Positions 2,624 through 48,625 of a stretch of 64,000 bases of DNA are shown piece by piece (the first letter of the stretch is position 1; every line of letters starts with the position of its first letter). Under the pieces are notes generated by a model, which saw only the letters and a list, made by a program, of their open reading frames with translations, made no database searches and was not told where the DNA came from. The translations under genes were made by a program, and so were the position numbers. The DNA comes from an uncultured archaeon (GTDB lineage Archaea; Thermoplasmatota; Thermoplasmata; Thermoplasmatales; Thermoplasmataceae): assembly GCA_000965745.1 (NCBI GenBank), contig CP009479.1:1870457-1934456 (forward strand). The letters are read 5' to 3'.

Positions 2624-2726
2624 CCCGGCTTAGCTCAGTTGGTAGAGCGGCGGACTGTAGAGGGAATCCACGGCATGGAATACCGCCGTAATCCGCAGGT
2701 CTCTGGTTCGAATCCGGAAGCCGGGA
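2624..2726 (+). tRNA. tRNA-Tyr (GUA) with a 30-nt intron
   Basis: Acceptor halves cccggct (2624-2630) and agccggg (2719-2725) pair perfectly, with discriminator A at 2726. The D arm and T arm (tctgg-ttcgaat-ccgga) are normal. Anticodon stem gcgga/tccgc encloses loop ctGTAg-a with anticodon at 2657-2659. The extra bases 2661-2690 fall after position 37, the canonical site of archaeal tRNA introns. Intron bases 2683-2688 (ccgccg) can also pair with 2648-2653 (cggcgg), so precursor folding may compete with the mature anticodon stem. The CCA end is not encoded. Confidence 0.93.
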
Positions 2727-8394: not shown

Positions 8395-9459
8395 TCATGG
8401 GAACGGCCACCCGGAAATTCTTTGAGGGTTCCGCCTTACTTCCGGCAGAGGTTTGATGTCAATTTTACGGCCGCATTCCCTGCACCTTCCATCTTCCGTC
8501 AGATTGAACGATATAGTGCGCATCATATCCCTCTCAACACATAGGCTGCCGCATTCGGGGCAATAGGTATTCTGGTAGATGCTGCCAGGGACATTGCCGA
8601 TATACACGTATTTCATGCCCTCCTCCCTGGCCACTTCATAATGCCTGATTAGTGTCTCCACTGGAGTGCTCGGGAGATGCATGAGCTTATAATCGGGATG
8701 AAACCTCAGAAAGCTCACTGGGATGCTGTCGCCGAATATCTCCTTCACTCTTTGAACCATAATTCTTGCATCATCGATCGAGTCTCCGATCTGTGGCACG
8801 ACGAGATCAGTGATTTCCACATGAATTCCAGTTTTAGACAGCCCCTTCAGGGCGTCATATATGAATTCCGGAGATGGAACTGACATGTACCTCCTGTAGA
8901 ATGAGAGATTGGCGTTTCCCTTGAAATCCACAGTTATGCAGTCGAGGAAATCGGAGAGTTCATCTATCGCCTCCGGCGTTTCATATCCGTTGGAGACAAA
9001 GACAGTTATCAGGCCTTTCTCTTTGGCTATAAGGCCAATATCCTTTGCATATTCGATGAAGATTGTAGGCTCGTTGTATGTGAATGCTATGCCCTGGCAC
9101 CCTTCCTTCACTGCATTATCTACAACCTGCTCAGGTGTCATATAATAGCTGCCTTCTATTTCCCTTCTCTGGCTGACGTCATAATTCTGGCAGAACTGGC
9201 ACGCAAAGTTGCAGCCAGCAGTCCCTATGGAATATATCCAGGTACCCTGGTACCTGTGCAGGATTGGCTTCTTTTCAATGGGGTCAATCTGAGCAACGAG
9301 CGGCCTCCCATAAGCCAGCAGGTCAAGCTTACCGCCCACGTTTTTCCGGACTCCGCAGAACCCTATCTGCCCATCCTTCAGAATACAATACCTGCTGCAG
9401 GCTGTGCATCTGACCTTGCCTTCGGATATCCTCTCATAAAGTGTTGCCTCGTGAATCAA
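8395..9459 (-). CDS. amrS: AmmeMemoRadiSam system radical SAM enzyme
   Basis: Radical SAM protein of 354 aa, the PflA-like member of the AmmeMemoRadiSam trio. The N-terminus has a small cysteine module (RCTACSRYC...GFCGVR). The cluster motif CNFACQFC at about residues 83-90 gives the CX3CX2C that binds the [4Fe-4S]/SAM centre. The C-terminus carries a zinc-ribbon-like CPECGSLC...CRECG. The length and order of these elements match the family named for co-occurrence with AMMECR1 and Memo proteins. The reaction is unknown. It lies 59 nt downstream of the Memo gene on the same strand, consistent with one operon, and the AMMECR1 gene is divergent just beyond. Family assignment is confident. Confidence 0.93.
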   Translation of the reverse strand: MIHEATLYERISEGKVRCTACSRYCILKDGQIGFCGVRKNVGGKLDLLAYGRPLVAQIDPIEKKPILHRYQGTWIYSIGTAGCNFACQFCQNYDVSQRREIEGSYYMTPEQVVDNAVKEGCQGIAFTYNEPTIFIEYAKDIGLIAKEKGLITVFVSNGYETPEAIDELSDFLDCITVDFKGNANLSFYRRYMSVPSPEFIYDALKGLSKTGIHVEITDLVVPQIGDSIDDARIMVQRVKEIFGDSIPVSFLRFHPDYKLMHLPSTPVETLIRHYEVAREEGMKYVYIGNVPGSIYQNTYCPECGSLCVERDMMRTISFNLTEDGRCRECGRKIDIKPLPEVRRNPQRISGWPFP

Positions 9460-9518
9460 TATCTTATCAGTACCTTAATGAATTAAACTCTTTCCGTGCG
9501 AGAAACGCAACTGCCGGG

Positions 9519-10334
9519 TTAACTCTGCGGGCAGGCAACCAGGGACGCATAACCGACCACAGAAGAGAAATCACCGCTGGTTTCTCCTGATGTTCTATAG
9601 TCGAGCAGCTTCAGGCTGCCGCCCCTTAGCCTGACTATTTCCATCATAATTGCAATAGCACCGTATCCGCAAGAGGAGATTCTCCTGTCTCCAAGTATTC
9701 TGTAAAGTTCCGGTACATCCAAGGACTCTATGACCGCTACGAGATCATGATCCTTTCTTCTTGCGGATTCGTGGCTTTCATAATGGGTCAGGTCAGATGT
9801 GGAAACAAAGGCGACTTCGTCCCCGAGGCCGTTCAGTGCATGGGCGATTTCCAGTGCTGTTTCCTTAGTCTGGTCGCCCAGAATTATCGGGGAGAACTCA
9901 AAATTTTCCCCATAAATATACTGGAGAAAAGGTATCTGCACTTCCACCGAATGCTCGACGGAGTGCGGGGTTGGATCTATGACTATTTTCTCAGATAATT
10001 CCGAGATTCTGTCAGAAAGGGCTGAATCAATCTTCGCGGAACCAAGCGGGGTAAGCCACGAGCCTCCTGAATAAGCTGCGGCAATTCTAGGGTAAGAATT
10101 GTGATTGGGACCTATAATGACGAATTTCCTGGCAGGAGATCTTCTTAGTGCCTTGAAAGAATGCATTGCGGTTATGCCGGAATATATCAGCCCGGCATGC
10201 GGGACAACCACTCCTATGGGATTATCGCATGAGTCTGGCTCACCGACTTCACGATCGATTGTTGAGAGCAACTCCTCAAGCTCTTTCTTACTGGATGGGT
10301 AGAAGAAACCACTGACAGCGGGACGTCTGTCCAT
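9519..10334 (-). CDS. amrB: Memo-family (MEMO1/AmrB) protein
   Basis: Cytoplasmic protein of the MEMO1 family, related in fold to class III extradiol dioxygenases; human MEMO1 binds iron. From ATG 10334: MDRRPAVSGFFYP is the classic N-terminus, with metal-ligand regions VVPHAGLIYSG (His about 46), IGPNH (His about 78), HSVEHSVEVQIPFLQ, TSDLTHY and the SSCGYGAI cysteine loop. At 271 aa it has the usual length. The frame extends 21 codons further upstream to 10397, but the conserved start is at 10334 and the upstream DNA is promoter for this gene and for AMMECR1. It heads the Memo-radical SAM operon. The physiological reaction is not established for this family. Confidence 0.93.
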   Translation of the reverse strand: MDRRPAVSGFFYPSSKKELEELLSTIDREVGEPDSCDNPIGVVVPHAGLIYSGITAMHSFKALRRSPARKFVIIGPNHNSYPRIAAAYSGGSWLTPLGSAKIDSALSDRISELSEKIVIDPTPHSVEHSVEVQIPFLQYIYGENFEFSPIILGDQTKETALEIAHALNGLGDEVAFVSTSDLTHYESHESARRKDHDLVAVIESLDVPELYRILGDRRISSCGYGAIAIMMEIVRLRGGSLKLLDYRTSGETSGDFSSVVGYASLVACPQS

Positions 10335-10399
10335 GTCTTTACATTCGCACAGGGTTATATTAAACTTGACCGACCATATGAGAACAATCCAATACAAAC

Positions 10400-10407
10400 T
10401 TTATATC
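10400..10407 (+). promoter_or_regulatory. TATA box of the AMMECR1 gene
   Basis: tttatatc is centred about 26 bp before ATG 10430. It favours that codon over the ATG at 10418 and implies a leaderless transcript. It lies in the 95-nt divergent region shared with the Memo gene. Confidence 0.6.
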
Positions 10408-10429
10408 ACAACTATTCATGATACCAGTA

Positions 10430-11020
10430 ATGGTACAATCGGCCAACCCAGCCAGTGAATTGCGGGTTTTCGACCTCATTACCGTGAGCCGTCGCGAATA
10501 CATCAGGAAGACAGCAGCTTGTGCACTGAGGAAATATTTCAGGTTGTCTGAATGCCCTGGCACGGACGATGACTTATTGCAGAAACTTAAGGCAGGGGTC
10601 TTTGTAACCATCAAGGAGAATGGTGATCTCCGGGGATGCATCGGGTTCGTGACACCTCCTACCGGCTTCCTGCAGACAGTCAGGGAGGCAGCTGTGATGG
10701 CAGCCACTGAAGACCCCAGGTTTCTTCCCGTAACTGCTGATGATCTTGAAAGGATTGAGTTGGAGATCACAATACTTGGCAGCCCTAAACCATTCGGAAA
10801 CAGGGACGCGACTAGCCTGAAATCTCTGGAGATTGGGAAGCATGGGCTCATTGTGGAGAGCCCGTTCGGGCGAGGCCTGCTGCTTCCTCAGGTAGCACTT
10901 GAATGGGGATTCGGCGTCGAGGAATTCCTGGAAGCAACGTGCATAAAAGCCGGGCTCAAGCGTGACTGTTGGAAAGACCCAGGCAATAAGATTTTTTACT
11001 TTGACGCACTGAGTTTTTGA
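10430..11020 (+). CDS. amrA: AMMECR1 domain protein (AmrA)
   Basis: Third component of the AmmeMemoRadiSam set, 196 aa. The conserved AMMECR1 signature is present: GVFVTIKENGDLRGCIGF with the LRGCIG core (invariant Cys), preceded by the helical LR-YF region and followed by AVMAATEDPRFLPV and LLLPQVALEWG, then a second conserved Cys in EATCIKAGL. The family's function is unknown; a role in substrate recognition or in handling a modified residue has been suggested from co-occurrence only. It is divergent from Memo, so the trio forms a compact bidirectional locus. The start is chosen from the TATA box at 10400-10407. A T-rich run (11034-11040) after the stop could end transcription. Confidence 0.92.
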   Translation: MVQSANPASELRVFDLITVSRREYIRKTAACALRKYFRLSECPGTDDDLLQKLKAGVFVTIKENGDLRGCIGFVTPPTGFLQTVREAAVMAATEDPRFLPVTADDLERIELEITILGSPKPFGNRDATSLKSLEIGKHGLIVESPFGRGLLLPQVALEWGFGVEEFLEATCIKAGLKRDCWKDPGNKIFYFDALSF

Positions 11021-11130: not shown

Positions 11131-11271
11131 ATGGCACGAGATGTAATATGTGGAATGAGCGTTAAAGAGGATACTGACATAACCAGCACGTTTAGTGGAA
11201 AAACCTACTACTTCTGCAGCGTGGATTGCAAGGAAGAATTTGACAAGAACCCCATAAAGTATACAAGGTGA
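11131..11271 (+). CDS. 46-residue YHS/TRASH-domain protein
   Basis: Complete small gene with ATG 11131 and TGA 11269-11271, encoding 46 aa. The sequence has CGM near the N-terminus (VICGMSV) and then YYFCSVDCKEEF and NPIKY, i.e. the whole YHS metal-binding fold C-M...FCS--C---F---P-KY and nothing else. A TATA element catatatt at 11105-11112 is centred 22-23 bp upstream, so the gene is probably leaderless. It is followed after 9 nt by the copper ATPase, whose own N-terminus carries the same domain. It probably acts as a metallochaperone or donor that takes the place of a CopZ-type HMA protein; that role is inferred from position and ligands, not demonstrated. Confidence 0.82.
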   Translation: MARDVICGMSVKEDTDITSTFSGKTYYFCSVDCKEEFDKNPIKYTR

Positions 11272-11280
11272 AGTGAAGAA

Positions 11281-13317
11281 ATGCCGACCGATCCGGTATG
11301 TGGGATGTATGTCCCGGAAACATCGGATCTTTTTGTAGAAAAAGATGGTGAGAAATACTACTTCTGCTCCAAATCGTGCATGGAGAGGTTTACCTCTCCC
11401 GAGGAGGAGACCAGAAAGTTAAGATCAAGGCTTATTGTAGGATGGAGCCTGTCAATACCAATCATCATACTCACTTTTGTGCTTGACTGGCCATACAAAA
11501 ATTACCTGCTCCTTGCAATGGCAGTGCCCGTCCAGTTTTACTCCGGCCTTGGTTTTTACTCCGGTGCATATCATTCACTCAAAACCAGGACGAGCAATAT
11601 GGATCTCCTGGTTACGCTTGGCACCCTGATTGCATTTATCTTTTCAGTGTCCATAACAGTAAGCCCCGGGATAATACTAAACTCACCCACATTCTTCGAT
11701 GCGTCGGCATTCATCATCACAATGATCCTTACTGGGAACTACATAGAGAACCTTACAAAAGTTCGTGCAGGCGGAGCTGCAAGAAAACTCCTGGAAATGA
11801 TTCCCGCCACTTCGCATTACGTGAAAAGCGATGGGTCGATTGTTGACGGTGATACGGACAGGATGAAGCCGGGCGACAGGATCCTGGTAAAGGCGGGTGA
11901 AGTTGTTGTGGCAGACGGTATAGTATTTGAGGGCAGCAGCGAAGTTGACGAATCCCTTATAACAGGGGAACAAAACCCTGTCCTCAAAGAGAACGGCGAC
12001 AAAGTGATATCAGGGACAAAGAACCTGAACGGATCGCTTACCGTTGAAGTAACAAATGTGGGCAAGAACAGTACAGTCAGCCTGATACATGATCTCCTGG
12101 AGAAGGCAACTTTTGGAAGGTCAAAGGTTCAGAGGATCGCCGACGTCTTCTCCAGCGTGTTTGTCCCGGTAGTTCTCTCAATCGCTGCAGGAACTGCCAT
12201 TTTCTGGTTCCTCCACCTTGGAGGCATCGGCAACAGGCAGGCTGTTGAAGTGGCGATTCTATCATTTGTATCAGTAGTTGTGATCGCATGCCCCTGTGCA
12301 ATAGGCCTGGCCGGTCCAATAACTTTCCTTGTATCTTCCACATCTTCATCCGGAAAAGGCATCATCATCAGGAACCCGGGAGCTTTTGACAGATTTGTTA
12401 AGGTGAACAGGGTTGTTTTTGACAAAACGGGAACGATAACCGAAGCCGACCCTTCAATCCATGAGATCAACGTTACGGGGTCCCACAGCAGAGGGGAAAG
12501 TCTGCTTCTGTCCGCCTCCCTTGAAAAATATTCCAATCATCCGATAGCAAAGGCGATTGTTAAGTTCGCAAGAGATGAGGAGATCGTTCTCTACGAAGCC
12601 AAGAACGTGGTGGAGACCCCAGGCAGGGGAATAAAAGGTGATGTGGCGGGAAAGTCCGTTGAAGTAACCAGAAGTGAGGGTGCAGTCGGTTCCAGGGTCA
12701 TGGTATACGTGGACGGAGAACCATCATGCGAGTTTACAGTTTCTTACAGGATCAGGGAACAGGCCAAATCCGTAGTAGAAGAGCTCAAGAGAAACGGAAT
12801 CAGGACATCGATTGTGACTGGAGATTCCAGAGAGGAAGCTGAAAGGGTAGCAAACGAGGTGGGAATTGAAGAAGTTCATTCACAAGCATCTCCTGAGGAT
12901 AAATCTGAGATTGTAAAAAAATACCAGATGGAGGGTGATTACGTTCTCTTTGTGGGGGATGGAATCAACGACAGCATCGCAATGGAAGTGTCGGATGTGG
13001 GTGTGGCAATGGGATCAGGCACTGATATTGCAAAGGAAAGTGGAGACATAATACTTCTTAACAACGACCTTAGAAATATATTGCGCTCCAAGAGCATTAG
13101 CGAAAAAACACTTGCTAAAGTGAAGCAGAACCTTGGATGGGCTGTGGGGTACAACACTGTCCTGATACCAATCGGAGCAGGCATACTTGTCCCGCTTACC
13201 GGGTCATGGATATTTTCCATAATGCCGATATTTGCATCATTTGCAATGGGTTTCAGTTCCACATCTGTTGTTATAAACTCGCTTTTCCTGAGAAGAAAGC
13301 TTGAATCACTTCAATGA
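11281..13317 (+). CDS. Cu+-transporting P1B-type ATPase with N-terminal YHS domain (CopA-like)
   Basis: Membrane pump, 678 aa, exporting monovalent copper (possibly Ag+) with ATP. Residues 1-38 form a YHS module (DPVCGM...YYFCSKSCMERF) in place of the usual CXXC HMA domain. Next come the transmembrane pairs, actuator SLITGEQNP, the metal-binding CPC in helix 6 (Cys about 337 in VIACPCAIGLAGP), phosphorylation site DKTGT (Asp about 381), hinge GDGIND (about 559-564), then helix 7 with YN (GYNTVLIP) and helix 8 with M--SS (FAMGFSSTSVV). CPC, YN and M-SS together define the P1B-1 Cu+ class. It is co-transcribed with the 46-aa YHS protein upstream; its stop overlaps an ATG of the next frame by 4 nt. 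Confidence 0.93.
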   Translation: MPTDPVCGMYVPETSDLFVEKDGEKYYFCSKSCMERFTSPEEETRKLRSRLIVGWSLSIPIIILTFVLDWPYKNYLLLAMAVPVQFYSGLGFYSGAYHSLKTRTSNMDLLVTLGTLIAFIFSVSITVSPGIILNSPTFFDASAFIITMILTGNYIENLTKVRAGGAARKLLEMIPATSHYVKSDGSIVDGDTDRMKPGDRILVKAGEVVVADGIVFEGSSEVDESLITGEQNPVLKENGDKVISGTKNLNGSLTVEVTNVGKNSTVSLIHDLLEKATFGRSKVQRIADVFSSVFVPVVLSIAAGTAIFWFLHLGGIGNRQAVEVAILSFVSVVVIACPCAIGLAGPITFLVSSTSSSGKGIIIRNPGAFDRFVKVNRVVFDKTGTITEADPSIHEINVTGSHSRGESLLLSASLEKYSNHPIAKAIVKFARDEEIVLYEAKNVVETPGRGIKGDVAGKSVEVTRSEGAVGSRVMVYVDGEPSCEFTVSYRIREQAKSVVEELKRNGIRTSIVTGDSREEAERVANEVGIEEVHSQASPEDKSEIVKKYQMEGDYVLFVGDGINDSIAMEVSDVGVAMGSGTDIAKESGDIILLNNDLRNILRSKSISEKTLAKVKQNLGWAVGYNTVLIPIGAGILVPLTGSWIFSIMPIFASFAMGFSSTSVVINSLFLRRKLESLQ

Positions 13318-31080: not shown

Positions 31081-31094
31081 AAACTGAAACAGAT

Positions 31095-31187
31095 GCCGGG
31101 ATGGCTCAGTTGGCAGAGCGCCGGACTCATAAGGCCTTAGTGTTCTGAGAAATCCGGAGGTCTCGGGTTCAATCCCCGATCCCGGCA
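31095..31187 (+). tRNA. tRNA-Met (CAU, elongator type) with a 20-nt intron
   Basis: Acceptor gccggga (31095-31101) pairs with tcccggc (31180-31186), discriminator A 31187. Stem ccgga (31121-31125) pairs with tccgg (31153-31157), and the loop reads ctCATa-a with anticodon at 31128-31130. Bases 31132-31151 interrupt the loop after position 37. The acceptor start G1-C72 and normal T arm fit elongator tRNA-Met; initiator tRNA would begin AGCGGG. A tRNA-Ile2 with a modified C34 cannot be fully excluded from sequence. Confidence 0.9.
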
Positions 31188-31268
31188 TATCCAAATAAAT
31201 CTCTGTTGCTTCTAAATACCTCTTAACGAATGGTAGTTTCAGCATCAATTTCATGGAGAAGTTCTATT

Positions 31269-39429: not shown

Positions 39430-41826
39430 TCAGGACTTCGCGGCCCTGACTGCCTTCCATATGTTTTCAGGCTTGAGCGGCATATCAATGTTAGAGATAC
39501 CATATTCACTGAGGGCGTCAATCACTGCATTCACAAGGGCTGGGGCCGCAGCAATTGTCCCCGCTTCTCCAACACCCTTTGCCCCGATAGGGTTATGAGG
39601 CGATGGAGTGAATGTCGACGCTGTCTCAAACCTTGGAACTTCAACGGCTGTTGGGACCGCGTAATCAGCGAGTGATGCAGTTATGAGGTTCCCACTCTCA
39701 TCGTATATGGATTCCTCATACAACGCCTGAGCAAGCCCTTGCACAATTCCTCCATGAATCTGCCCCTCCACAATCATTGGGTTCAGCTGAGGGCCGCAGT
39801 CGTCGACAGCCACGTACCGCTTGATCTTGACCTGGAACGTCTCAGGGTCGATCTCAACGTTGCACACATGGGTTCCAAAGGGGAAAACAAAGTTTTCAGG
39901 GTCATAGAAGGTGGTTTCTTCAAGTCCCGGCTCCATACCCTCAGGCAACTGGTCGAAACCTGCACCGTAAGCCGAGTAGGCAATATCCGACAGCTTCCTT
40001 TTTTCCGTGGGATTGCCTTCAGAATAAAATTCCCCGTTGTCGTAAACGATGTTATCTGGGGTCGTGTTCAGCATGTGTGCTGCTATCACAGTAGCTTTCT
40101 TCAGGACTTTTCTGCATGCAAGGGCAATTGCGCCTCCTGCTATTGGTGTGGTCCTGCTTGCATACGTTCCCATGCCGAACGGTATAATCGCTGTATCGCC
40201 ATGGACAAGTTCTATATCTTCATAAGGAGCCTGAAGCTCATCTGAAACAAGCTGTGCGAACGTGGTATCTTCTCCCTGTCCATGGGGATGCCCTCCTGTG
40301 AGGACTGAAACCTTACCGGTGGGGTGAACCCTGACAGTGGCACTTTCCCAGAGGCCAAGGCCGTATCCCGTTGCCCTGACAATCTTTGAAGGGCCGGCAC
40401 CACTCATTTCCACATAGCTCCCAATACCAGTGCCCACCAGTTTCCCTTCCTTTCTGAGTTTCTTGTTCTCTGCTACCTGTTTCCTGTAATCGATTAGATC
40501 TAGTGCTTTCTCAAGGGCTGTGTGATAATCACCGCTGTCATACAAGGTTCCGGTGACGGTGGCAAAGGGAAATTCCTCTTTCTTGATGTAATTCTTCCTC
40601 CGCAGTTCTGCGGGGTCCATCTCAAGTTTGCGCGCCAGGTTGTCAACCATCCTTTCCACAATAAATGTTGCTTCAGGCCTGCCGGCGCCCCTGTATGCAT
40701 CCACGGCCATCGTGTTGGTAAGAACTCCAATGACTTCACACTGCACAGCTTGCATCTTGTACTGGGCACTGTACATAAGGACGGACAGGACAGTCGCGAC
40801 ACCCGGGGCAACGGTAGAGATCCATCCCCCAAGGTTTGAGTATACCTTGACCCTCACTCCAAGTATGGTGCCGTCCTTCTTGGCAGCCATCTCGACATAA
40901 TGGACGTGGTCCCGGCCATGGGTTGTGGAGAGATAGTTTTCTCTCCTGTCTTCAGTCCACTTCACTGGCGCCTTGAGTTTCCTTGAAAGGTAGATAAGAA
41001 CAACCTCCGGCCCGTAGCATGCTATCTTGCTTCCAAAAGCGCCACCTACATCGGGTGAGATCACGCGCAGCTTGTTCTCTGGAATTCCCAGCACCGAAGA
41101 AAAGAGATATCTGTGCACATGCGGATTTTGTGAGGTCATCCATATAGTGGTCTCGTCCTTTCCCTGCTCATACTTTGCGATTGCACTTCTCGTTTCCATG
41201 GCAGACGGCTGGAGCCTCTGGTTGCGAAGCCTCTCCTTTATTATCACGTCAGCCTGATCGAAAACAGATTCATCTCCGCCCGCGAACTTCCAGTTCAGTG
41301 CAACATTATTCTCTATGCCTTCATACAACCTTGGAGAACCTTCCTTGACTGCGTCCTCCTGGTTGCTTACTGCAGCGAGAATTTCATAATCCACATCAAT
41401 GAGTTCAATGGCATCCCTGGCTATGTATGGGCTTCTGGCAACCACCACGGCCACCGGATCGCCAACATAGCGGGCTTTGTCAAAAGCTATCGAATAATAT
41501 GGGGTGTGCTTCAGGTCTGCGTTGGGGAGATTCCACGCAGTCGGAATAGGACTCATCTTGTCTTTCAGGTCATTTCCTGTAAGAACCTCAACCACCCCGG
41601 GAAGTTCCTTCGCCTTTTCCGTCTTTACACTCCTGATCCTGGCATGTGCATAGGGGCTTCTCAGAAAGGCGGCGTACATCATGTCAGGGAATTTGATGTC
41701 GTCCGTATATGTGCCCATGCCTGTGATCATCCTGGCATCTTCTTTCCTCTTCATGCGCGTTCCGGAAATCCTGTTGACCTTTCTTCCGGACACCTTCTCC
41801 ATGATTACCTGTGCTTCCTGAGGCAT
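39430..41826 (-). CDS. Molybdopterin-binding large subunit of a xanthine-dehydrogenase/CoxL family enzyme (operon 1)
   Basis: 798-aa catalytic subunit of a molybdenum hydroxylase acting on an aldehyde, N-heterocycle or related substrate. Family N-terminus RKEDARMITGMGTYTDDI, MPT-binding regions DVGGAFGSK and AYRGAGRPEATFIVERMVD, then HPHGQGEDT and the catalytic Glu in GAKGVGEAGTIAAAPALVNAV. The loop reads AYRGAGR, not the AYXCSFR of CO dehydrogenase, so it is a form II member and not a true CODH. Gene order is FAD (M), 2Fe-2S (S), Mo (L) on the minus strand with one- to two-base joins. The substrate is unknown; archaeal relatives include glyceraldehyde oxidoreductase. Confidence 0.93.
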   Translation of the reverse strand: MPQEAQVIMEKVSGRKVNRISGTRMKRKEDARMITGMGTYTDDIKFPDMMYAAFLRSPYAHARIRSVKTEKAKELPGVVEVLTGNDLKDKMSPIPTAWNLPNADLKHTPYYSIAFDKARYVGDPVAVVVARSPYIARDAIELIDVDYEILAAVSNQEDAVKEGSPRLYEGIENNVALNWKFAGGDESVFDQADVIIKERLRNQRLQPSAMETRSAIAKYEQGKDETTIWMTSQNPHVHRYLFSSVLGIPENKLRVISPDVGGAFGSKIACYGPEVVLIYLSRKLKAPVKWTEDRRENYLSTTHGRDHVHYVEMAAKKDGTILGVRVKVYSNLGGWISTVAPGVATVLSVLMYSAQYKMQAVQCEVIGVLTNTMAVDAYRGAGRPEATFIVERMVDNLARKLEMDPAELRRKNYIKKEEFPFATVTGTLYDSGDYHTALEKALDLIDYRKQVAENKKLRKEGKLVGTGIGSYVEMSGAGPSKIVRATGYGLGLWESATVRVHPTGKVSVLTGGHPHGQGEDTTFAQLVSDELQAPYEDIELVHGDTAIIPFGMGTYASRTTPIAGGAIALACRKVLKKATVIAAHMLNTTPDNIVYDNGEFYSEGNPTEKRKLSDIAYSAYGAGFDQLPEGMEPGLEETTFYDPENFVFPFGTHVCNVEIDPETFQVKIKRYVAVDDCGPQLNPMIVEGQIHGGIVQGLAQALYEESIYDESGNLITASLADYAVPTAVEVPRFETASTFTPSPHNPIGAKGVGEAGTIAAAPALVNAVIDALSEYGISNIDMPLKPENIWKAVRAAKS

Positions 41827-41827
41827 T

Positions 41828-42352
41828 TCAACTGCCCCCTTTAGTCTTCATCTTGTCAGCAGCAAGCCTTACCGCATCAACAATATTCTGGTATCCGGTG
41901 CATCTGCAGATATTGCCGGATATGCCCCACCTGATCTCGCTTTCGCTAGGGTCCGGGTTCTCTTTGAGGAACCAGTAGGACTGCATTATCATTCCGGCGG
42001 TGCAGAATCCGCACTGAAGCCCGTGCTTTTCCTGGAATGCTTCCTGAATGGGGTGAAGTTCAGTAACGTTTCCAATACCTTCTACGGTAATTATGTCTGA
42101 GCCATCTGCCTGAATGGCGAACACTGTGCATGACTTAACTGATTGACCATCCTGGATCACGGTGCATGATCCGCAGTTTGTAGTATCGCATCCAATGTGG
42201 GTGCCCGTCATGCCAAGCCTGTCCCTCAAGACTGTTGCAAGAAGTTCCCTCGGCTCAACTGAAACTTTCCTCTTCCTGCCGTTGAGAGTGAATTGAACCT
42301 CCACCAGGTCTTCCAGGCCTGCCCCATCTTCAAACGTCTCCTCATAAACCAT
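41828..42352 (-). CDS. 2Fe-2S subunit of the molybdenum hydroxylase (operon 1, CoxS-like)
   Basis: 174 aa. N-terminal plant-type [2Fe-2S] site [18 protein letters not shown], and the C-terminal all-helical site CGFCTAGM...[15 protein letters not shown]. Passes electrons from the Mo centre to FAD. The start overlaps the FAD-subunit stop by one base (TAATG) and its stop sits two bases from the large-subunit ATG, so the three genes are one tight operon. Confidence 0.93.
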
Positions 42353-43233
42353 TATATAGCACCTCCAGCCCTTTCAAATGCAGTTCTAAGTGACCTTCTG
42401 GTGTAGACTTCACACATGGCCTTCTTGAATTCTGCTGAACCCCTGAGGGGATCGTCAGTTGGGTCGGTGCTTTTGACCGCCAGCTTCGCAGCCTCGTTTA
42501 TTCCATCTATGCCCACCTTTTTGCCCAGAAGGAATTCTTCAGCTTCGGATGCCCTCATTGGAGTGCGTCCCACGGCTGTAAGGCCGATCCCTGCACTGCT
42601 GCAATTGCCTTTATCATCTAATTCGAGCTGCGTTGCCACGCCAACAGTCGCAAAATCCCCTGCTTTTCTTTCCATGTTCATATAAGAAAAACCATGGCCC
42701 TTTCCTGATTTGGCGGGAACGGATACTCGTGTCAGTATTTCACCAGCCTTTATGGACGTCTCATACATATCAACGAAAAAGTCGTCCGAATCTATTGCCC
42801 TCTCCTTTTCTCCGTTGCTGACCATGATCTTGCCTTTTAAGGCTATAATACAGGCTCCCCAGTCACCAGAAGGATCGGCGTGGATTAGGGAGCCGCCTAT
42901 TGTCCCCTTGTTCCTGACCTGAGGGTCTCCAATCCAGGATGCCACCTCAGACATCAATGGAACCTCCTTCTGGATTAATGGCGAAGTCTCAATTGCATGA
43001 TGAGTAGTTGCACCCCCAATAACTATATCTGAACCATTTTCAGCCATCCCTTTCATGCTGTCGATTTTACCGATATCGATCAGGTGATTCACTGACACGA
43101 GCCTCATCTTCATCATGGGTATGAGGCTCATGCCACCTGCAAGAATTCTTGCTTCCTCTCCATGCTCCTGAAGCAGTTTTACAGCCTCAGCTACTGTCCG
43201 GGGAGAATAATACTTAAAATTGGCAGAGTACAT
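42352..43233 (-). CDS. FAD-binding subunit of the molybdenum hydroxylase (operon 1, CoxM-like)
   Basis: 293 aa from ATG 43233. FAD-binding PCMH domain: [38 protein letters not shown], then [10 protein letters not shown] and the second FAD loop [16 protein letters not shown], plus the C-terminal CO_deh_flav_C part. The frame runs back eight codons to a TTG at 43257; ATG fits the family start. First gene of operon 1. TATA-like elements at 43286-43294 and 43303-43312 (minus strand) lie upstream in the 180-nt gap to XdhC. Confidence 0.92.
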
Positions 43234-43437
43234 AACAAATCCTTTAACAACATTCAAACGGATGTATAATAGAATTGCGTTCGGAATATATGACGGGGGT
43301 GGTTTAAATATACCGAATAGAAGAACTGAAATCTTTGCGAGAATTAAATATCCCTGGAGTTTTCAAAAAGGGATGGGTGGATAATTGAGCCAGAATTGAT
43401 TGCTTGAGCTAGAAAATGCTCCTGTTGCATCAAGCTC

Positions 43438-44286
43438 TCAATGCGAGATCTTGCTGTGCTTGCCTTTTTGTTCGCCATCGGGCGTTCTGGAAACTTTGAC
43501 AACCTGCCCCATTATGCTCATTGCTATCTCTTCCGGGGTTATGGCCCCAATGTCGATCCCTATGGGTGCGAACATACTTCCCAGGAATTCATCTGAAACC
43601 CCCCTTGAGCCTAGCTGTTCCTTGTCTGCCCTAACCCTGTTCTTGCTTGCCATAAGGCCAACGTATCTGAGATTCCTCCTGGAAAGAGCTTCGAGAATGG
43701 GGATGTCTCTGGCACCCTTAGTTAGAACTACAACCGAGTCAGAATCGTACAGCTCGAAATTTGAAAGGTCGTCCTCAACATCCTTCAGCACTTCATCCGG
43801 CTGGTTGTTCAAAACAGGAGAGTGATCCAGGAGGACCACCTGGTATCCTAGAAGTTTAGCTTGCCTTATGAGTGCATCCTGAACGTCATCCTTTCCTCCC
43901 TGGCCCACAATTACGAGTCTCTGGGCCGGATTGTACGGTTCGAGGAATATATCCATGACACCACCGCAGAAGGTTTCAACGTGGATTTCATTCTCCGGTA
44001 TGGCCCTGTTCATGGACAGGAGGGCGTCCTTTGCTTCCTCAAGGAATACTTTAACCATTTTTGGCTTGCCTGTCCTCATTACTTCCTTGGCATGCGGCAG
44101 GAGGGAAGATTCAGGGCATGCTCCCCCTAAGGTTCCATAGGGCACATCCTCGTCAGCCGTTATTATTATCTTAAACCCGGGCTTGCCCAGAGTTGACCCG
44201 TCCACGTTGATAATGGTTGCTACGACGAATGGCTTTCTCTTCTCGATCAGCTCATTTAACACAATAGGAAATTCCTGAGGTTTCAA
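43438..44286 (-). CDS. XdhC/CoxI-family molybdenum cofactor maturation protein
   Basis: 282 aa. Helps insert or sulfurate the Mo cofactor of xanthine-dehydrogenase-type enzymes. XdhC landmarks: VATIINVDGSTLGKPGFK (the family's S-P-G-like entry), GTLGGACPESSL, ETFCGGVMDIFLEP, a Rossmann-like VIVGQGG with YQVVLLDHSP, and YVGLMASKNRV with APIGIDIGAITPEEIAMSIMG at the end. It lies between the two hydroxylase operons and may serve both. Upstream is the divergent mocA-like gene. Confidence 0.9.
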   Translation of the reverse strand: MKPQEFPIVLNELIEKRKPFVVATIINVDGSTLGKPGFKIIITADEDVPYGTLGGACPESSLLPHAKEVMRTGKPKMVKVFLEEAKDALLSMNRAIPENEIHVETFCGGVMDIFLEPYNPAQRLVIVGQGGKDDVQDALIRQAKLLGYQVVLLDHSPVLNNQPDEVLKDVEDDLSNFELYDSDSVVVLTKGARDIPILEALSRRNLRYVGLMASKNRVRADKEQLGSRGVSDEFLGSMFAPIGIDIGAITPEEIAMSIMGQVVKVSRTPDGEQKGKHSKISH

Positions 44287-44384
44287 GGCAATTTACTATC
44301 AATATGATGTATTTATCGTTTTTGGGCTGCGAAACTGGTTAACTAAATCAATATATCTCCTTACAATCACATGTACAGTGCTGA

Positions 44385-44993
44385 ATGTCTGATAATAAGA
44401 GTGTGTCTGGCGTAATTCTTGCCTCAGGGTTTTCATCACGCTTCCGGGGAGACAAGCTTTCAGCTAAACTGGATGAAAAGCCTATTGTAGCTTATGCGGT
44501 GGAAAATGCCCTCAACTCAGAATTGGCAGAAGTGATAGTGGTAATCGATCCTGATAACAAGGCGGTTCGCAAACTGATGCCTGACAAAGTAAAAATCGCA
44601 GAAAACAGGCACAGGGAAGAGGGTATAAGCAGTGCTGTGAAGGCGGGATTGAAGAGTGTTGATGAAAATTCCACGGCGGCCCTCTTTCTTGTCGGTGATC
44701 AGCCTTTCGTATCACCTGCCCTGATCAACAGGATTGTGAATGCTTATCTTGAAGAAGATTGCCAGATTGTATCATGCTCTCATAAAGGTGTCTGGAAGAA
44801 TCCAATGCTCTTTGACCGGAGCTTTTTCGAGCAGCTTTTGAGCATTGCCGGAGATGTTGGCGCGAAGCAGGTAGCACTCCTGAATCCTGACCGGGTCTGT
44901 ACAGTTGAGGTTAAGGATCCGCTTCCGCTTTTTGACATAGACACATTTGAGGACCTTGAGAAAGCCCGGAGATTGAAGAATATGGTTGATTGA
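44385..44993 (+). CDS. MocA-like molybdenum cofactor cytidylyltransferase
   Basis: 202-aa nucleotidyltransferase. Signature GVILASGFSSRFRGDKLSAKLDEKPIV, then EGISSAVKAGL and FLVGDQPFVSPALI (the GDQP motif of MobA/MocA-like enzymes), and DIDTFEDLEKA at the C-terminus. Expected to attach CMP to Mo-MPT, giving the MCD cofactor used by xanthine-oxidase-family enzymes with bis-nucleotide forms. It is placed between the two hydroxylase operons, divergent from xdhC. A TATA box aatatatc at 44350-44357 lies about 31 bp before the ATG, giving a very short leader. Confidence 0.88.
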   Translation: MSDNKSVSGVILASGFSSRFRGDKLSAKLDEKPIVAYAVENALNSELAEVIVVIDPDNKAVRKLMPDKVKIAENRHREEGISSAVKAGLKSVDENSTAALFLVGDQPFVSPALINRIVNAYLEEDCQIVSCSHKGVWKNPMLFDRSFFEQLLSIAGDVGAKQVALLNPDRVCTVEVKDPLPLFDIDTFEDLEKARRLKNMVD

Positions 44994-45050
44994 GCTTACA
45001 ATCATATAATGCGATAAAAGAGGATGGGAAAAAAATAGTTTTGTGATCTT

Positions 45051-47066
45051 TCAGAAGTCTTCGGCAATATCTTCCGGCCTTACCGGAGTGTCCCTGATCC
45101 TCTTCCCGGTCACTTTCTCGATGGACCTTACAAGCGCGCTTGGTACACCTATTGTCGGGGCTTCCCCCAGTCCCTTGACGCCGTGTGGCAGGTCTGAACG
45201 ATTTTCTGCTACCTTGACCACGAAATTTGGGACCTGATCGGCCGAAAGGACACCGGAATCAGCTATGCTGCCTGTCAGCAGTTCACCTTCATCGGAGTAG
45301 GCGATCTCTTCTGAAACAACCTGGCCGATTCCCTGGACAATTCCCCCCATAATCTGGCCCCATACGCTCTCCTTGCTCAGAACTCTTCCGACATCATAGT
45401 AGGACCAGCAGTCCTTGACCCTGATAGCCCCAAGAGGAGAAACATCAGCAACTGCGATGTTTGCCCCGAATGAGTTAAGAGTTCCCTTCATTTCCTCGAA
45501 GTGGTCTATGTCGTAGCTGCCCGAAAGAGCGTTTTCTGGCGAGTAGTCGCCAAAGTCCTTAATCACCATGTCCTTTATTTTCCCGGATGCTGCAATTACG
45601 GCAGCACCGGCAGTGATCGCAGACCTGCTCCCCCAAGCCCCAACGCCCCTCTTTACGGCGTCTGTGTCACCAAGTTGCAACTCAACAAGATCACTTGCTA
45701 TTCCAAGCTCCTCCCTTATAAGGGTCCTTACGAATTCCTGATGGCCCTGGCCCGCGGTGTCACCACCAAGCCACACCTTCACTCTGCCTTTTTCAATCTT
45801 TATTCTTGCGCCTTCTCCTGGCCCTATTCCCGGTACGAGAACAAAGAAACCCAGGCCTGCCGTGTCGGAAGTAAATCTCTTTCCGTATTCGAATTCCTTG
45901 AGCGCATCCTGGAAGAATGGTTTAGCAGCCCCTATTTCAAGGCCTAGTGGAGATTTGAAGGGTTCTGATGACATGTTCGCGATTCTTACGTCTGCAGGGT
46001 CCATCTTGAGTTCATCTGCAAGAAGATCAACCATCCTTTCAATGAAGTAGGATGCCTCAGGCCTCCCGGCTCCCCTGTAAGGCCCCTGAGGCACCTTGTT
46101 TGTGAGCGTGGCAATAGCGCGGACATAGCCGTTTGGTATTGCATACGGGCCCGTAAGCTGATATGCTATGAATCGTGGAGCGAACTCACCGAATCCTCCA
46201 TAGGCGCCTGCATCTACGTACACTTCGCCTGTAACGCCGTTTATTATTCCGTTCTTGCCGGCAAATATCTTGATGTCTGCCCTGGCACCTCTGCCCGGAT
46301 TGCTTGAGCTGAGGTGCTCGCTCCTGGTTTCTATCCACTTCACCGGCCTCTTGTACTTCATTGCTGCATGAGCGGCAATAACGTACTCTGGATGAAGTCC
46401 ACCCTTAAGGCCGAATCCGCCTCCTGTATCAGCCTGGATTACCCTGACCGAATCAGGGCTCAGATTCATGGCCTCAACCAACCCCTCCTTTATGCTCTGT
46501 GAGGACTGGGAGGATGCCCACATGGTAAGCCTGTTCCCGTCATAGGTAGCCACCACTCCCCTGGGTTCCATTGGGTTTGTAGCGACCCTTCTGTTGTAGA
46601 ACGAGTCTTCCAGAACTATGGGGGATGATGTGTCCTTGAATTCCTTTCCAACCCACTTGTCGATAAGAATGTTGTTTTTTGTTCCCGGATGTATCGGATC
46701 TGCCTTCAGGGCAGCATCAATCTCCATCACAGGCTTCAGCGGCTCATATTCCACATCAACGGAGTTAAGCAGGTCTTCCGCCTTGTATCTGTCTTCACCG
46801 AAAACTGCAGCTACGGGCTGCCCCAGATAGCTGGTATAGCCCTGGGCAAATACCGGTTCACTGTATATGTTGATTTCACCGGACCCGCCTTCCCCGACGG
46901 ATGCCATTCTTCCTTCATAGTCGCTGCTGTTGAGCCCTCCCTTGAGTGAAGCAATCTTTGCACGTGAGTATGGGCTTCGGACTATGGCCATATAAAGCAT
47001 TCCCGGGAGATTTATGTCGTCAACGTATGTTCCTTTTCCTTCCACAAACTTCTGTCCTGTTATCAT
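45051..47066 (-). CDS. Molybdopterin-binding large subunit of a second hydroxylase (operon 2), compact form
   Basis: 671 aa, about 130 residues shorter than its operon 1 counterpart, yet all catalytic landmarks are present: FVEGKGTYVDDINLPG, TGGGFGLKGGLHPE, PYRGAGRPEASYFIERMVDL, AGQGHQEFVRT, GGIVQGIGQVVSEE and the catalytic Glu in GVKGLGEAPTIGVPSALV. The shortening is by reduction of internal loops, mainly around and after SAITAGAAVIAASGKIK, rather than by truncation, so this is a real diverged enzyme. The start is ATG 47066, 25 nt from the stop of the iron-sulfur gene. It likely acts on a different substrate from operon 1. Substrate unknown. Confidence 0.9.
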   Translation of the reverse strand: MITGQKFVEGKGTYVDDINLPGMLYMAIVRSPYSRAKIASLKGGLNSSDYEGRMASVGEGGSGEINIYSEPVFAQGYTSYLGQPVAAVFGEDRYKAEDLLNSVDVEYEPLKPVMEIDAALKADPIHPGTKNNILIDKWVGKEFKDTSSPIVLEDSFYNRRVATNPMEPRGVVATYDGNRLTMWASSQSSQSIKEGLVEAMNLSPDSVRVIQADTGGGFGLKGGLHPEYVIAAHAAMKYKRPVKWIETRSEHLSSSNPGRGARADIKIFAGKNGIINGVTGEVYVDAGAYGGFGEFAPRFIAYQLTGPYAIPNGYVRAIATLTNKVPQGPYRGAGRPEASYFIERMVDLLADELKMDPADVRIANMSSEPFKSPLGLEIGAAKPFFQDALKEFEYGKRFTSDTAGLGFFVLVPGIGPGEGARIKIEKGRVKVWLGGDTAGQGHQEFVRTLIREELGIASDLVELQLGDTDAVKRGVGAWGSRSAITAGAAVIAASGKIKDMVIKDFGDYSPENALSGSYDIDHFEEMKGTLNSFGANIAVADVSPLGAIRVKDCWSYYDVGRVLSKESVWGQIMGGIVQGIGQVVSEEIAYSDEGELLTGSIADSGVLSADQVPNFVVKVAENRSDLPHGVKGLGEAPTIGVPSALVRSIEKVTGKRIRDTPVRPEDIAEDF

Positions 47067-47091
47067 TTCATCACCATTCCAGGGAATCCTC

Positions 47092-47601
47092 TTACTGGGA
47101 CTCCACCACGACTTCTTCCTCTTCTCCTTCTTTCTCGATGAGTTCGGATGCGTATTTTACTGCTTCAACAATATTCTGGTATCCTGTGCACCTGCAGAGG
47201 TTTCCGGAAAGGTTCCTCCTTATTTCCTCCTCAGTGGGTTTCTTGTTTTTCTTCAGAAGCCAGTATGAAGCCATGAGCATTCCGGATGTGCAGTACCCGC
47301 ATTGAAGTCCATGCTTGTCTAGAAACGCCTTCTGAATTTTGCTGAGTTTTCCATTCTGCGAAAGCCCTTCTACTGTTTTTATTTCCCTTCCGTTAGCCTG
47401 TCCCACCAGAACGGTGCATGATTTTACAGCTTTTCCGTCCATGACCACAGTGCATGCCCCACAGTTGGAGGTGTCACATCCAATATGAGTTCCAGTTGCC
47501 CCTACTACATCCCTTAGATAATGAGCAAGAAGCATCCTGGGTTCCACTTCGTCACTTCTCTCTTTGCCGTTTATTTTCACTCTAACCTTTATTTTGCCCA
47601 T
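47092..47601 (-). CDS. 2Fe-2S subunit of the second molybdenum hydroxylase (operon 2)
   Basis: 169 aa. Sites HIGCDTSNCGACTVVMDG and CGYCTSGM...[15 protein letters not shown], equal in layout to the operon 1 subunit but clearly diverged, so the operons are old paralogues and not a recent duplication. It ends in a Glu-rich tail (ELIEKEGEEEE). It follows the FAD gene by 2 nt. Confidence 0.93.
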   Translation of the reverse strand: MGKIKVRVKINGKERSDEVEPRMLLAHYLRDVVGATGTHIGCDTSNCGACTVVMDGKAVKSCTVLVGQANGREIKTVEGLSQNGKLSKIQKAFLDKHGLQCGYCTSGMLMASYWLLKKNKKPTEEEIRRNLSGNLCRCTGYQNIVEAVKYASELIEKEGEEEEVVVESQ

Positions 47602-47603
47602 TT

Positions 47604-48485
47604 TTATTGCGCCTCCTTTGCTCTTTTGTAAGCTGCCACAAGAGATTCTTTGATGATGAACCTCAATACCTTCTTCTTGTAATCAATTGAACCGTAGAAG
47701 TCCGAAACAGGGTCAGATTCCTCGGTTATTGATCTGGCAGCTTCGGCAGCGAGTTCCTCTGTCAGTTTCTTTCCGGCAAGAATTCCCTCTGCCCTGGTGG
47801 ATTTGATTGGGGTTGGGCCAACCGATGTCAGCGCAACGCCAACCTTAATGATCTTCCCATCCCCATCAACAATGATATTGCTCGCAACTGCAGCCACTGA
47901 AAAATCGCCGGCGCTCTTCTTGTGCTTTATGTAGGCTCCACCTTGCCTCTTCACCATTTTTGGCACCCTTATCTCGTAAAGTATTTCGTTTGGCTCAAGT
48001 GCTGTGATGAGGGAGTCGACAAAGAAGTCTTCTGCCTTGATCTCTTTGCCGCCATTCTTTCCCTGTACCATGAAGGTCGCATCCAGGGAAAGCATAACTG
48101 CTGGAAGGTCGTTTGCAGGATCGCCGTGTGATATGTTTCCGCCAACCGTTCCCATGTTCCGGACAAGGGGGTCAGCTATCTGGTCAGCTGCCTCTTTTAT
48201 TATCATGTATCTGTTTTTAATTGTAACGCTGGAGCCAAGTTCATCAACTGTCGTCAAAGCGCCTATGCTTAGCCTGTTGGAATCTTCCTTTATGTAGTCC
48301 ATCTCCTCAATCCTGGATATATCTATCACGTGAGATATTGAGGCAAATCTCATTTTCATCAGCGGGATAAGGCTTTGGCCGCCAGCCAGCAACTTTGCCT
48401 CATCACCATATTTTTCTAGAAGGTTCACAGCTTCGACCATGGTCGAAGGTGTATAATATTCAAAAACACTAGGTGTAATGGTCAT
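47604..48485 (-). CDS. FAD-binding subunit of the second molybdenum hydroxylase (operon 2)
   Basis: 293 aa from ATG 48485. SVFEYYTPSTMVEAVNLLEKYGDEAKLLAGGQSLIPLMKMRF, then the FAD loop GTVGGNISHGDPANDLPAVML and the C-terminal CO_deh_flav_C part (VGVALTSVGPTPIKSTRAE). ATG 48485 is chosen because the minus-strand TATA at 48504-48513 lies 24 bp upstream and because the family N-terminus starts here; the frame extends to 48527 through a hydrophobic stretch that is promoter DNA. First gene of operon 2; the IS3-type element lies about 115 bp upstream of the promoter. Confidence 0.92.
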   Translation of the reverse strand: MTITPSVFEYYTPSTMVEAVNLLEKYGDEAKLLAGGQSLIPLMKMRFASISHVIDISRIEEMDYIKEDSNRLSIGALTTVDELGSSVTIKNRYMIIKEAADQIADPLVRNMGTVGGNISHGDPANDLPAVMLSLDATFMVQGKNGGKEIKAEDFFVDSLITALEPNEILYEIRVPKMVKRQGGAYIKHKKSAGDFSVAAVASNIIVDGDGKIIKVGVALTSVGPTPIKSTRAEGILAGKKLTEELAAEAARSITEESDPVSDFYGSIDYKKKVLRFIIKESLVAAYKRAKEAQ

Positions 48486-48503
48486 GGCGCTAACTATGAA
48501 TAT

Positions 48504-48513
48504 TACATATATA
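48504..48513 (-). promoter_or_regulatory. TATA box of molybdenum hydroxylase operon 2
   Basis: On the minus strand tatatatgta is centred 24 bp before ATG 48485, predicting a leaderless operon transcript. The IS end at 48626 leaves this promoter intact. Confidence 0.55.
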
Positions 48514-48625
48514 ATCCCATTCATCAATTACCCGTGTTAATTAATTTATTATCCATCTATAAAAACCATAACAGGGAAAGTTGAGGGGCATGTATTGTGC
48601 ACCTTTGCCTGAGCCATATGGGAGG

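Follow-up and report, generated by a model that had tools for sequence, protein, structure and literature searches.

The AmmeMemoRadiSam trio, comprising the radical SAM enzyme AmrS, Memo, and AMMECR1, is widespread, and two relatives in eukaryotes, MEMO1 and AMMECR1, are relevant to cancer and to a human developmental syndrome. Eukaryotes retain MEMO1 and AMMECR1 and are not known to have AmrS, and human AMMECR1 presumably keeps the LRGCIG motif. Burroughs et al. reportedly worked on the Memo/LigB superfamily in 2019, and literature searches brought up no function described for the trio in prokaryotes. Human MEMO1 binds Fe and Cu (PMC11081632; PMC9477392). Its metal ligands are H49, H81, and C244; iron binding is abolished in the H49A and C244S variants and is not significantly changed in D189N and H192A, and dioxygenase activity was not found for MEMO1 (PMC11081632). 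The present report is focused on an archaeal trio locus in the window, i.e., the whole 64,000-nucleotide stretch of DNA analyzed here, and on the residues of its proteins in genomes with and without the partner genes.

The trio locus and its gene order

The genome carrying the window (G000) consists of one contig of 2.23 Mb and holds one copy of each trio gene. The amrS gene (8395..9459, minus strand) begins with TTG and encodes a protein of 354 amino acids, memo (9519..10334, minus strand) encodes 271 amino acids, and AMMECR1 (10430..11020, plus strand) encodes 196 amino acids. All three proteins exceed the curated NCBIfam cut-offs: AmrS scores 318.7 bits as AmmeMemoRadiSam radical SAM enzyme (TIGR04337, cut-off 220), Memo 264.9 bits as AmmeMemoRadiSam protein B (TIGR04336, cut-off 26), and AMMECR1 161.1 bits as AmmeMemoRadiSam protein A (TIGR04335, cut-off 99). 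Pfam E-values of 3.5e-21 (Radical_SAM), 3.6e-61 (Memo), and 2.3e-45 (AMMECR1) place these matches far past chance. The first-pass annotation had described a complete set of the three genes at these places, each with its defining residues, and both parts of this description are upheld by the ORFs, the profiles, and the presence of CX3CX2C in AmrS, H46/H78/C222 in Memo, and LRGCIG and DPRF in AMMECR1. The locus is a complete, intact, and ordinary AmmeMemoRadiSam system, and we regard this as practically certain.

The translation starts define the spacer between the divergent genes. ATG 10334 is the likely start of Memo, with the mechanical ORF reaching 10397, and AMMECR1 has two in-frame ATG candidates, 10418 and 10430. 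In leaderless archaeal transcripts, a TATA box is expected approximately 26 nt before the start codon. Because the TATA-like sequence TTTATATC (10400-10407, plus strand) is located ~26 nt 5′ of ATG 10430, this codon is favored as the AMMECR1 start; the spacer 10335-10429 would therefore measure 95 nt, in agreement with the 95-nt promoter region first annotated. A second TATA-like sequence, TTTAATATAA (10364-10355, minus strand), is located ~26 nt 5′ of the Memo ATG, and the spacer is a putative divergent promoter.

Of the 14 genera in the window's family that carry the trio, 12 have AMMECR1 divergent from memo and amrS, which follow each other in that order; the lack of linkage in close relatives that had been named beforehand as counting against the annotation is thus not seen. 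The exceptions are genus g2, in which AMMECR1 lies elsewhere in the genome, and genus g15, in which AMMECR1 and memo are co-directional and amrS is several kb off. Linkage is mostly missing among the trio genes sampled from the order's remaining families. Farther out, a set of 80 AmrS loci of archaeal and bacterial origin was analyzed by six-frame searches of flanks of up to 8 kb, some of which are shortened by contig ends; Memo and AMMECR1 are both absent from the flanks of 71 loci, and Memo or AMMECR1 is present at the other 9. The compact layout is therefore normal for the window's family and less common elsewhere. The annotation had considered archaea with such a minimal system good places to identify the product and had suggested a search for a consistent fourth partner among neighbors. 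The layout is not supported as unusual or as a special handle on the product, since it is the family norm and the genes are usually unlinked outside it; ORF clustering around the trio in 19 genera of the family revealed only the trio as broadly shared, and the same clustering at the 80 diverse AmrS loci revealed no recurrent extra family beyond small lineage-specific groups. A methyltransferase-like gene (MGYVF...DIGCGTG) is located directly upstream of AmrS at six bacterial loci (L206, L214, L219, L222, L233, and L243), five of which are labelled Desulfobacterales-type bacteria or similar, and it is a possible lineage-specific partner of AmrS.

Several other features of the window were observed. 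Beside AMMECR1 lie a short YHS-like ORF (11133-11271, plus strand) and a YHS-containing heavy-metal P-type ATPase (11281-13317, plus strand). The sequence at 31094-31188 (plus strand) is called tRNA-Tyr with anticodon ATA by ARAGORN; a CAU tRNA (Met or Ile2) interrupted after position 37 by an intron of ~19 nt is the better fit. Another tRNA at 2624-2726 (plus strand) is recognized by the Rfam model alone (57.7 bits) and missed by ARAGORN, and at 103 nt it is long enough to suggest an intron. In the region 39430-48527 (minus strand), two three-ORF sets resemble, by eye, molybdenum hydroxylases or aerobic-type CO dehydrogenases in sizes and N-termini, and between them lie ORFs that, again by eye, resemble a nucleotidyltransferase of the MobA kind and an accessory protein.

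Co-occurrence, partner loss, and fusions

The near-complete genomes of the order number 51; all three genes are present in 44 of them, none in 4, Memo only in 2, and Memo with AMMECR1 in 1. Methanosarcina acetivorans and Sulfolobus acidocaldarius, which served as controls in these searches, were positive for the trio. In 50 diverse AmrS-bearing genomes, drafts included, Memo is found in 48 and AMMECR1 in 44. Within Halobacteriota, the phylum of Methanolobus, AMMECR1 is present in 117 of 119 genomes. A subset of 32 Halobacteriota genomes was chosen by weak AMMECR1 scores, with controls added, and its proportions are therefore not population estimates; 14 of them carry Memo together with AmrS and 18 lack the pair, and AMMECR1 is kept alone in 17 of the latter. 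Mirror-tree correlations of 0.76-0.79, from a comparison that holds no control gene, show shared history only.

By profile alignment, the Memo metal triad H46/H78/C222 corresponds to the human MEMO1 ligands H49/H81/C244, and D181 and H184, which form a second sphere together with H128, correspond to human D189 and H192. In complete Memo sequences from the fetched regions of genomes with partners, H128, D181, and H184 are kept without exception (46/46). Solo Memos, i.e., those from genomes with no detected AmrS and AMMECR1, all keep H46/H78/C222 (6/6) and are all altered in the second sphere (6/6). The change is D181N in G060 and G061, which are single-contig genomes, H128Y with D181N and H184Q in G055, G058, and G059, and H128Y only in G093, a draft of 79% completeness. 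The six solo Memos represent three lineages, and the pattern thus rests on few events. The altered Asp and His are dispensable for metal binding, because human D189N and H192A barely alter iron binding. Since solo Memos change these residues and the human variants still bind iron, we infer that H128, D181, and H184 may be catalytic and needed only alongside the partners.

AMMECR1 harbors the motifs LRGCIG, DPRF, and LLLPQV. In a motif survey, LRGC and D.RF are universal among 93 AMMECR1 sequences drawn from the order's other families, AmrS-bearing genomes, and the Methanolobus phylum, the last including 30 top-scoring genomes, only some of which have an established trio status. In the 17 Halobacteriota genomes in which AMMECR1 occurs without Memo and AmrS, DPRF is absent throughout and replaced by DSCG, ASCG, or SSGT, and a WLYPTV-like sequence occupies the place of LLLPQV. 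LRGC is kept in 16 of these 17, and its Cys is therefore not strictly tied to the partners. Among AMMECR1 proteins without Memo/AmrS in the window's order, that of G080 carries TRGNSG and DARF, and those of G102 and G103 retain neither motif; G078, which has the trio, additionally encodes a second AMMECR1 with LRGNAG. AMMECR1 is intact with no detected partners in G071, a draft of 88% completeness; this protein hardly differs from its G084 counterpart and is therefore possibly contamination. Independent losses are few overall, comprising three lineages for Memo and two or three for AMMECR1.

Furthermore, the diverse set includes nine distinct loci at which Memo and AMMECR1 are fused into a single ORF of ~500-570 amino acids, with Memo first. 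These fusions keep the Memo residues, save for one with Asp at the position of C222. Loci L247 and L218 are among the fused loci in bacteria, and L218 and L238 have an N-terminal extension that is signal-sequence-like. The residues that appear to track partner presence are the new addition of this study, with moderate strength.

A proposed composite enzyme and alternative explanations

At a probability of approximately one half, Memo and AMMECR1 would constitute one metal enzyme that works with a radical step by AmrS. Briefly, the two proteins would form one composite enzyme with a composite active site, to which Memo would contribute the His2Cys metal site, probably occupied by iron in vivo, and H128/D181/H184 as catalytic residues, and the LRGC and DPRF/LLPQV segments of AMMECR1 may cover or complete the Memo pocket. 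AmrS would perform its radical step on a substrate of the same pathway, and a single compound or a single modified residue would therefore be the common target of all three proteins. The model is supported by the family matches and motifs, by co-occurrence, by the Memo-AMMECR1 fusions, by the residue changes where partners are missing, and by the absence of a glycyl-radical enzyme from the genome. Against it stand the small number of independent losses, the change of H128 only in G093, the retention of LRGC in 16 of 17 Halobacteriota solos, the intact AMMECR1 of G071, the lack of linkage in most lineages, and the Asp at C222 in one fused Memo. The fuller version, in which H128/D181/H184 of Memo and DPRF of AMMECR1 are maintained only with partners and an orphan Memo decays to a metal-binding protein, is more tentative and is considered somewhat less probable than its negation. 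If this version is true, human MEMO1 and AMMECR1 would be recast as halves of one enzyme. The partner-loss comparison singles out D181, H184, and H128 of Memo and the DPRF motif of AMMECR1 for mutation and leads to the prediction that Memo and AMMECR1 form a complex; the question is thus testable without knowledge of the substrate.

The strongest alternative concerns AmrS. This protein carries the radical-SAM cluster motif C83-x3-C87-x2-C90 and two additional Cys4 sites, N-terminal (C18/C21/C25/C35) and C-terminal (C300/C303/C326/C329), and none of the eleven cysteines of the three sites varies among the 24 aligned sequences from Thermoplasmatales. The AF2 model (pLDDT 90.7) finds its nearest PDB fold in pyruvate formate-lyase activating enzyme (8FO0, 3C8F; TM 0.82 by target length), and the predicted likeness covers nearly the whole of that enzyme. 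AmrS fails the activase family PFLA (TIGR02493), with 45.7 bits at a cut-off of 231.75. A profile search revealed no classic glycyl-radical enzyme (PF01228, PF13597) in the window's genome or in any genome of its family; such an enzyme was discarded as the target of AmrS, which rules out a classic activase role in this family. An activase-like protein in this setting needs a non-classic substrate, and radical modification, proposed in the annotation as the probable product, remains an inference. By analogy with the pyruvate formate-lyase activating enzyme, AmrS could be an activase that places a radical or modification on Memo or AMMECR1, e.g., on G261 of the VVGY motif or on the LRGC Cys. The C-terminal (R)VVGY of Memo resembles what we take to be the RVxGY motif of glycyl-radical enzymes, and G261 is invariant. 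However, solo Memos keep G261 in the absence of AmrS, which ranks VVGY low as a glycyl-radical site; LRGC is likewise kept in 16 of the 17 Halobacteriota solos with no AmrS, and G261 lies in a β strand of the predicted model, whereas the corresponding Gly of glycyl-radical enzymes lies in a loop. We consider this activase role unlikely.

The lack of linkage in most lineages, as at the 71 of 80 loci, leaves room for separate functions, and the trio might be connected by ancestry only, with separate housekeeping roles, as the persistence of AMMECR1 alone in 17 Halobacteriota genomes would allow. Joint presence and absence across genomes, the fusions, and the partner-dependent residues oppose this explanation, and its probability is low.

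An O2-using extradiol-type dioxygenase, acting on an aromatic or isoprenoid substrate with the other two proteins as accessories, was considered an equally improbable identity for Memo. The Memo model resembles aminophenol and DOPA extradiol dioxygenases (fold TM about 0.55-0.62), the His pair of LigB-type enzymes is present, and the human homolog binds iron. However, C222 replaces the Glu of the His2-Glu iron triad, the trio is found in strict anaerobes such as methanogens, and a published table lists PF01871 as a marker of anaerobes (3.38 for aerobes and 50.66 for anaerobes; PMC13386939); that no dioxygenase activity was found for MEMO1 (PMC11081632) points the same way. A role in metal handling, with Memo as a copper/iron binder and the locus as a copper resistance unit including the adjacent YHS copper P-type ATPase, would fit the Fe and Cu binding described for MEMO1 (PMC11081632; PMC9477392) and is no more probable, because the ATPase was rejected as a trio partner after proving not to be a recurrent neighbor in the sampled genera, and the second-sphere residues, dispensable for metal binding, are yet conserved whenever partners are present.

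Comparison with known systems

Archaeal Memo (AF2 model pLDDT 96; TM 0.88-0.89 to MEMO1 by query length) shares with human MEMO1 (PDB 7KQ8, 7L5C, 3BCZ) the fold, the metal triad, and the second-sphere Asp/His, although identity is ~21% and the VGY of archaeal Memo corresponds to VSY in the human protein. AmrS shares the radical SAM core and the overall fold of pyruvate formate-lyase activating enzyme and differs by its N- and C-terminal Cys4 sites and by the absence of a glycyl-radical enzyme from the genome. The closest structures to AMMECR1 are the archaeal proteins 1VAJ (PH0010; E 3.6e-32), 1ZQ7 (MM0484), and 1WSC (ST0229), which belong to the same sequence family with LRGC and LLLPQV and show no remarkable difference. 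As a whole, the trio resembles AmmeMemoRadiSam systems elsewhere in its scores, its residues, and its genome-wide co-occurrence, whereas its genes are adjacent and divergent, an arrangement common to most of its family and not to most other sampled lineages.
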